A stretch of DNA of 35,336 nt from Spirochaetales bacterium. GTDB taxonomy: Bacteria > Spirochaetota > Spirochaetia > DSM-27196 > SLST01. The notes under the pieces are model-generated. The model did not search any database. It had not been told where the DNA came from and was given only the letters and a program-made list of their open reading frames with translations. The stretch spans positions 1 through 35,336 of the forward strand of contig JAHOYX010000174.1 in assembly GCA_019038705.1 (NCBI GenBank). The letters are read 5' to 3'. A program made the position numbers and the translations under genes. Positions 10,133 through 12,141 of this stretch are shown here, one piece after another. Each line of letters begins with the position of its first letter. Position 1 is the first letter of the stretch.

Positions 10133-10258
10133 GTTCTTCGCCTGAGCACGATTCGGTGTGCAGCCAGCGCGTCAATTGCTGACGTGCCGTTGCGTGCCCC
10201 TCGGCGCCGTTGGTTTGGGTGAAGTGGAGACTGTATTGAGGGGATTTTTTGTGGGAAT

Positions 10259-10312
10259 GGATCAAATTGGCAGGGCCAATCTGATCCTGGAGTTCTGCAC
10301 AGCAGAACTCCA
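10259..10312 (+). promoter_or_regulatory. Two adjoining hairpins in the rplK leader
   Basis: GGATCA-A-ATTGGC agg GCCAAT-C-TGATCC (10259-10287, 12 bp with one mismatch), directly followed by TGGAGTTCTGC aca GCAGAACTCCA (10288-10312, 11 bp perfect). Confidence 0.75.
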
Positions 10313-10372
10313 CGTGGCGGTTATCCAAAGCCGAGCGCCGTCCACGATGTCTGCACCACATAGGAGATGCGT

Positions 10373-10810
10373 ATGGCTAAGAAAAGGGTAACTGCGATGA
10401 TCAAGCTGCAGGTGCCGGCGGGGAAGGCAACACCGGCGCCGCCGGTCGGACCGGCCCTCGGTCCGCACGGTGTCAGCGCGCCGCAGTTTGTTCAACAGTT
10501 CAACGATGTTACGAAAAACATTGAACCGGGCTTGATCATTCCCGTGGTGATAACTGTCTATCATGATCGGACCTTTTCGTTCATCACCAAGACGCCGCCC
10601 GCGGCGGTGCTCATCAAGAAGGCCGTGAAGCTGGACAAGGGAAGCCCGGAAAGTAACAAGGAGAAGGTCGGGACCATTACCCGCGCTCAACTCCGCGACA
10701 TTGCAGAGCGGAAGATGCCGGATCTGAACGCGAATGATGTTGAAGCTGCAATGCAGATCATCGCGGGAACCGCTCGCAGTATGGGCGTAGAGGTGGAGGC
10801 GCAAGGATGA
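10373..10810 (+). CDS. rplK: 50S ribosomal protein L11
   Basis: [34 protein letters not shown]...; ATG at 10373 better spaced from AGGAG than ATG at 10367. Confidence 0.97.
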
Positions 10811-11484
10811 GAGGCGGCAAGAAGTACCGAAGCGCAATAGCCACATACGACAGGCAGCAGATGTACTCTACGGAAGAGGCGGTAGGAATGGTCAAGCAGC
10901 TTGCATTTGCCAAGTTTGACGAGACCGTGGAACTGTCAATGAATCTCAATCTGAAGAAGAGTGCGACAGTGAGAGACACGCTTGTACTGCCCAACCAGTT
11001 CAGCGCGGAGAAGAAGATTCTTGTCTTTGCCAAGGGTGAGAAAGCGGATGAAGCCCGGGATGCCGGCGCCACCTACGTTGGGGATGACGATCTCATTGAG
11101 AAGATCAAGGGCGGTTGGCTGGATTTTGACGTCGCCGTCGCGACGCCCGACATGATGAAGGATGTGGGTCGGCTCGGACCCATCCTCGGCCGCCGCGGCC
11201 TGATGCCGAATCCCAAGACTCAAACAGTCACCTTCAATATCAAGGCCGCGCTCGACGAACTGCGAAAGGGCCGGGTGGAATTCCGATCGGACAAGACAGG
11301 TGTAGTGCATCTCGCGGTCGGCAAGGTCTCCATGGAACCCGCCTCGATTGCTGAGAACATCGACATTGTGATTTCCGAGGTGGAGAAACGTCGACCGGCG
11401 GACACTAAGGGGGATTTCATCAGGACCATCGCGGTCTCATCGACGATGGGCCCCGGAGTCAAAGTTGCCACGGAGAGCGAGTAG
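10807..11484 (+). CDS. rplA: 50S ribosomal protein L1
   Basis: [47 protein letters not shown]...[19 protein letters not shown]. Confidence 0.97.
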
Positions 11485-11493
11485 GAGACCACC

Positions 11494-12033: not shown

Positions 12034-12045
12034 TAAACAGTCGAT

Positions 12046-12079
12046 ACGCCCTCCGTTGTGGGGGCACAAGAGGCGGCGT
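12046..12079 (+). promoter_or_regulatory. Bulged hairpin between rplJ and rplL
   Basis: ACGCC-CTC-(cg)-TTGTG-GGGG-CACAA-GAG-(gc)-GGCGT, 13 bp with one symmetric internal loop. Confidence 0.55.
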
Positions 12080-12141
12080 TAGTCTTCGGAAGAAGTGTTG
12101 CGTGCTATCGTCGCCCAATACACATGAAAGGAGAAGGTAAT

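Follow-up and report, generated by a model that had tools for sequence, protein, structure and literature searches.

What do two adjoining, nearly perfect hairpins do directly in front of a ribosomal protein gene? The question is raised by the 240-nt spacer between nusG and rplK (10133-10372) in a stretch of 35,336 nucleotides from a Spirochaetales bacterium, here called the window, whose nearest named relatives among the database matches are Spirochaetota MAGs. The leader elements, rplK and rplA lie on the + strand. The genes follow in the order nusG, rplK, rplA, rplJ, rplL, as supported by Pfam. The gene for L11, rplK (10373..10810; PF00298, PF03946), most likely starts at the ATG at 10373 and has a Shine-Dalgarno sequence AGGAG at 10362..10366, which relatives place likewise. 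It is followed by rplA (10807..11484; PF00687), which encodes L1, the presumed repressor. The end of rplK and the start of rplA share an ATGA; because of this overlap the two genes are probably coupled in translation, and there is no room for a second operator before rplA. The gap between rplA and rplJ measures 9 nt (11485-11493), into which an L10 leader of the E. coli type would not fit; that between rplJ and rplL measures 108 nt (12034-12141).

In E. coli, L1 that is in excess of rRNA binds to the leader and represses the translation of rplK and, by coupling, of rplA. The spacer of the window has the location of such an operator, before rplK and with rplA directly after it, co-transcription being presumed from the gene order. 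We put the probability that its end is an L1 autoregulatory site, i.e., a translational operator of rplK-rplA, at roughly 0.82; L1 binding and repression are here judged from the sequence. The reported hairpins themselves are an apical expansion, specific to the lineage, that separates the two halves of the L1 motif.

The hairpins are real. Hairpin 1 (10259..10287) has 12 bp, one A.C mismatch and the loop AGG. Hairpin 2 (10288..10312), TGGAGTTCTGC-aca-GCAGAACTCCA, is flush with it and has 11 bp and the loop ACA. The initial annotation had described both inverted repeats, and they proved correct letter for letter, zero spacing included. It had left out a third hairpin (10313..10346; CGUGGCGG..CGCCGUCCACG), which is flush with hairpin 2, contains one bulge and is predicted in both the minimum-energy and the centroid structure, and also the half motifs of the L1 site on either side. 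The 71 nt from 10250 to 10320 fold at -33.8 kcal/mol, as compared to -19.6 for dinucleotide shuffles (z -5.05; 0 of 200 shuffles as good), and the 109 nt from 10251 to 10359 reach a folding z of -5.34 versus shuffles. Pairs of hairpins of at least 9 bp each and at most 3 nt apart were found once besides the leader pair, i.e., 2 per 435 kb of the window genome (G000), and not at all in Markov-shuffled sequence. A search of the same genome for exact dispersed copies of the leader hairpins returned only the hairpins themselves.

The initial annotation could not match an L1 site by eye. The L1 consensus does flank the hairpins, with GUGGGA at 10251 and ACCAC at 10355; it was missed because the half-sites are about 90 bases apart. 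The 5' half (10251..10258) begins with GUGGGAA and aligns with GUGGGAG-Y of 52 operators. It comprises the GUGG of the lower stem, the GA of the internal loop, and A10257 and U10258, which enter the two pairs at the base of the upper stem. The 3' half (10347..10359) reads AUGUCUGC-ACCAC and aligns with RCGYUNNN-ACCAC of the 52 operators. A10347 and U10348 are the partners of U10258 and A10257, respectively; they are followed by the loop strand GUCUGC plus A10355 and by the CCAC of the lower stem. The ACCAC (10355-10359) is close upstream of the AGGAG, which starts three bases on, at 10362. The 23S-like arrangement, GUGGGA..ACCAC with an asymmetric internal loop, is present, the window having GGGAA with a compensating U.

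This last feature is a peculiarity of the window. The pair that closes the upper stem is A-U here and G-C in the other 51 cores, a two-sided change that keeps the pairing. Since both members of a near-invariant pair are changed, the site scores low, 12.4, in a leave-out weight matrix; other places in the window score higher, and the maxima of shuffled sequence average 18.4. The sequence score therefore does not single out the site, and its assignment is based on where it lies, on orthology and on the comparison with the sister species. In the minimum-energy fold the internal bulge and the lower stem are present, the upper part is multi-branched, and A10257-U10348 and U10258-A10347 stay open; the constrained folds of the site did not enforce these two pairs. 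The upper stem below the junction would thus have at most 2 bp, which is shorter than in plain sites.

The relatives contributed 125 nusG-rplK spacers, 110 of them distinct. An L1 operator can be parsed in 100 of these 110, in 28 of the 100 without a contiguous 8-nt 3' strand, and the layout shared by about 100 spirochaete spacers is GUGGGAG-[stem]-RCGYUNNN-ACCAC, followed by the Shine-Dalgarno sequence. Sites were selected by GGGAG or AGGAG (TGGGA as a fallback) plus AC[CT]; to count as canonical, a site also had to show CG, TG or CA at its internal loop, a requirement that has a bearing on the closing pair. Sequences on a manually compiled exclusion list were left out of the alignment. Covariation in these gaps, a check proposed in the initial annotation, was then computed from 52 distinct cores with the tip removed, and the operator core covaries strongly. 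In this motif-selected set, standard pairs occupy 95.7% of the pair cells (75.4% when shuffled), two-sided changes are seen in 99 pair cells (30 in shuffles), and the covariation score is 0.579, versus 0.169 shuffled and 0.08-0.22 when slid (best slid 0.221). In the lower stem the two G-C pairs are invariant in this set and provide no evidence, because GGGA and ACC/ACT served to find the sites; neither the outer U-A pair nor the upper-stem pairs other than the closing one played a part in the selection. In a wider set of 89, A-U replaces one lower-stem G-C in five sequences. The lower stem of L043, L044, L076, L078 and L094 is GUAG/CUAC for GUGG/CCAC, a compensated change. Outer pairs of the lower stem beyond UGG/CCA showed no covariation in the alignment, and no such pairs are claimed.

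The rplK leader of E. coli K-12, CGGGGAG-CCUCUCAGAGG-CGUUAUU-ACCC, has the same layout as the spirochaete core: it is located before rplK, and its lower stem, its GA opposite a loop of the CGUUAUU type and its nearness to the Shine-Dalgarno sequence are all alike. The upper stem of E. coli, however, is closed by G-C and not by A-U, and it ends in a small apical loop where the window has three flush hairpins. Layout, conservation and covariation thus lend good support to the initial proposal that the leader corresponds to the L1 target of E. coli, but the two hairpins on which it was built are not the motif that L1 recognises.

The ribosomal protein uL1 binds to H76-H78 of 23S rRNA, and its operators before rplK are widespread as mimics of this site (review, PMC10931766). 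They are found before rplK in Proteobacteria and before rplA or both genes in other phyla, and are described as one irregular stem-loop with an internal bulge (PMC10931766). The L1-stalk site of 23S (H76-H78) has a GGGAG-[stem]-C..ACC core in common with the mRNA site. It differs by a longer 3' internal strand and a tip of its own, of which the hairpins in the window are no copy. In a genome of the same order (G008) the L1 stalk reads GGAGG-GAG-ACU..AGU-C..GAAAU-ACC-UCC; the GGGAG/C/ACC arrangement is kept, while the bases of the lower stem differ. The exact pattern GTGGGAG..GAAATACCAC yielded no match for a 23S L1 site, the spirochaete 23S examined having GGAGGGAG..ACCUCC in H76. The sister species G001, the genome G005 and the window's own incomplete genome yielded no 23S. 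The Rfam scan for ribosomal leaders that had been recommended was of no help: at the gathering threshold Rfam 15 calls only tRNAs in the window and no leader family, and a permissive scan of the leader gave only chance matches far below the cut-off. The rplK leader of E. coli and the plain spirochaete rplK leaders that were scanned are equally uncalled at the gathering threshold.

How well is the tip conserved? The L11 of the sister species is 96% identical, and all three tip hairpins are kept; the position orthologous to 10251..10258 reads GTGGGAGT. In hairpin 1 the two species differ by one double compensatory change, and one mismatch has become a pair. Hairpin 2 shows double compensatory changes at three pairs and, once, a change on one side only. 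At the position of hairpin 3 there is again a hairpin, the sequence of which is different. The idea of a functional leader, which the initial annotation had tied to conservation of the stems in relatives, survives this comparison. Another member of the family, G005, has a three-hairpin tip of unrelated sequence on a canonical core. Such a tip occurs in 3 of 8 family genomes, its conservation referring to two genomes of the genus and one further family member; the other 5 have a plain stem-loop. These plain operators (G002-G004, G006, G007) have the core GUGGGAG..RCGYNNNN-ACCAC-n-AGGAG, like the window, but carry one stem-loop of about 15-16 nt in place of the 88-nt three-hairpin tip. An expanded tip may also be present in L042 and, judged by eye, in L090.

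A mechanism of the E. coli type fits, given that AGGAG comes right after the lower stem and that rplK and rplA share the ATGA. The core consists of the GUGG/CCAC lower stem, the asymmetric loop of GA versus GUCUGCA and the pairs with which the upper stem begins, i.e., the motif that is recognised by L1 in H76-H77 of 23S. When L1 exceeds the free 23S rRNA, it would bind to this core beside the Shine-Dalgarno sequence of rplK and block initiation at rplK and, via the ATGA overlap, at rplA. Instead of ending in a small loop, the upper stem is predicted to open into three flush hairpins, which makes a four-way junction. Most likely, the three hairpins cap the stem, hold together the half-sites, which are far apart in sequence, and fold on their own without involving the core. 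A stabilising or insulating effect of the tip is less firmly implied than L1 binding; the tip may be a passenger.

Such a passenger role is one rival explanation, which we consider unlikely. The L1 operator would be real, and the hairpins would be a neutral palindromic hairpin-array element in a tolerant loop, devoid of any regulatory role. Extra hairpins indeed occur at two loops of the operator, at the tip in the window and in the 3' internal loop in many treponeme MAGs, so both loops appear to tolerate insertion. The treponeme operators L064, L077, L087 and L089 have acquired flush near-perfect hairpins, as has the window, and one of these resembles hairpin 2; there, however, the upper stem-loop is plain and complete, and the hairpins are inserted 3' of it. 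Because insertions sit at these two points across lineages, the tip and the 3' loop can be taken as variable and the core as constant. Hairpin 2 further resembles the hairpin TGGAGTTTCGC-nnn-GCGAAACTCCA, which with close variants is present in six treponeme rplK leaders (L064, L077, L082, L087, L089, L113). Palindromes of the GGAGTT type number 4-9 per treponeme genome versus 0-1 for a backwards control, and flush pairs are seen elsewhere in these loci. The corresponding tallies are 8 versus 2 in G000, 8 versus 8 in G005 and 11 versus 2 in G001; the hexamer tally of G001 is biased, as its sample included contigs that were picked for GGAGTT palindromes. Against mere passengers speak the lack of any other copy in the window genome and the changes between the sister species, which are compensatory substitutions and not decay. 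Also, hairpin 2 of G001 begins with GAAGTT instead of GGAGTT, so the likeness to the treponeme hairpins may be due to chance. As, in addition, the comparison was post hoc and no flush hairpin pair was found in 397 kb of one treponeme genome, this likeness is a lead only. A general hairpin-array element is not established, with only the 2 flush pairs in G000 and none in the treponeme sequence. It is doubtful, too, that a class of flush hairpin-pair elements, with GGAGUU..AACUCC as one member, has repeatedly been placed in the leaders of spirochaete ribosomal proteins, where it would occupy one loop or another of the L1 operator depending on the lineage and add a second regulatory input to L1 control.

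There are two other explanations. Long near-perfect flush stems are possible substrates of RNase III, and leaders of ribosomal proteins are diverse; the leader might therefore be a processing site or the target of another ribosomal protein. We regard this as very unlikely, since the flanking core fits the layout of L1 operators, that of E. coli included, the stems have just 11-12 bp each, and none of the Rfam leader families matches. It is highly improbable that the hairpins form a terminator or attenuator of the hairpin-cluster type between nusG and rplK. Hairpin clusters have been proposed as intrinsic terminators, the poly-U trail being sometimes dispensable (RNA-seq comparison, PMC8355165), and a terminator-like stem with a T-tract, CCCCTC..GAGGGG-ATTTTTT (10197..10250), does precede the hairpins; it lies directly 5' of the operator and is kept in the sister species. 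The hairpins, however, are flanked by the two half-sites of a conserved operator and lie immediately 5' of the rplK start; in most relatives one short stem-loop occupies this place. Neither hairpin 1 nor hairpin 2 is followed by a T-tract, so the G+C-rich hairpin plus U-tract of an intrinsic terminator is not formed; on this point the initial annotation, which held that they do not look like terminators, was right. In E. coli a similar stem with a T-tract is found at the equivalent place before the L1 operator, where it presumably overlaps the L11 promoter.

The class of L1 operators is known; what is new is that the tip is branched, that there is a second insertion point, and that covariation supports an alignment for spirochaetes. 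The literature searched, which did not reach most subscription journals, yielded no paper on an L1 operator of a spirochaete. The L1 operator is here extended across Spirochaetota with covariation evidence, and the core alignment offers a basis for a covariance model, as the site in the window and that of E. coli are both uncalled by Rfam. Large insertions are tolerated by the operator at two points, its tip and its 3' internal loop. This indicates which part L1 would require, and it becomes easy to test whether autoregulation is altered by a bulky, branched tip.

Flush or near-flush hairpin pairs, most of which end in a GGAG..CTCC hairpin, are also seen elsewhere in the ribosomal-protein cluster of treponeme MAGs, i.e., at about 3605-3655 in L067, L072, L079 and L091, at 1138-1190 in L064, at 1226-1283 in L067 and at 1176-1226 in L068. 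Both species of the window's genus, finally, contain tandem arrays of a 56-bp unit with palindromes of the GGAGTTCACGCG/CGCGTGAACTCC type (L133, 381-572, on contig C17 of G000; L136, 340-484, on contig C8 of G001).
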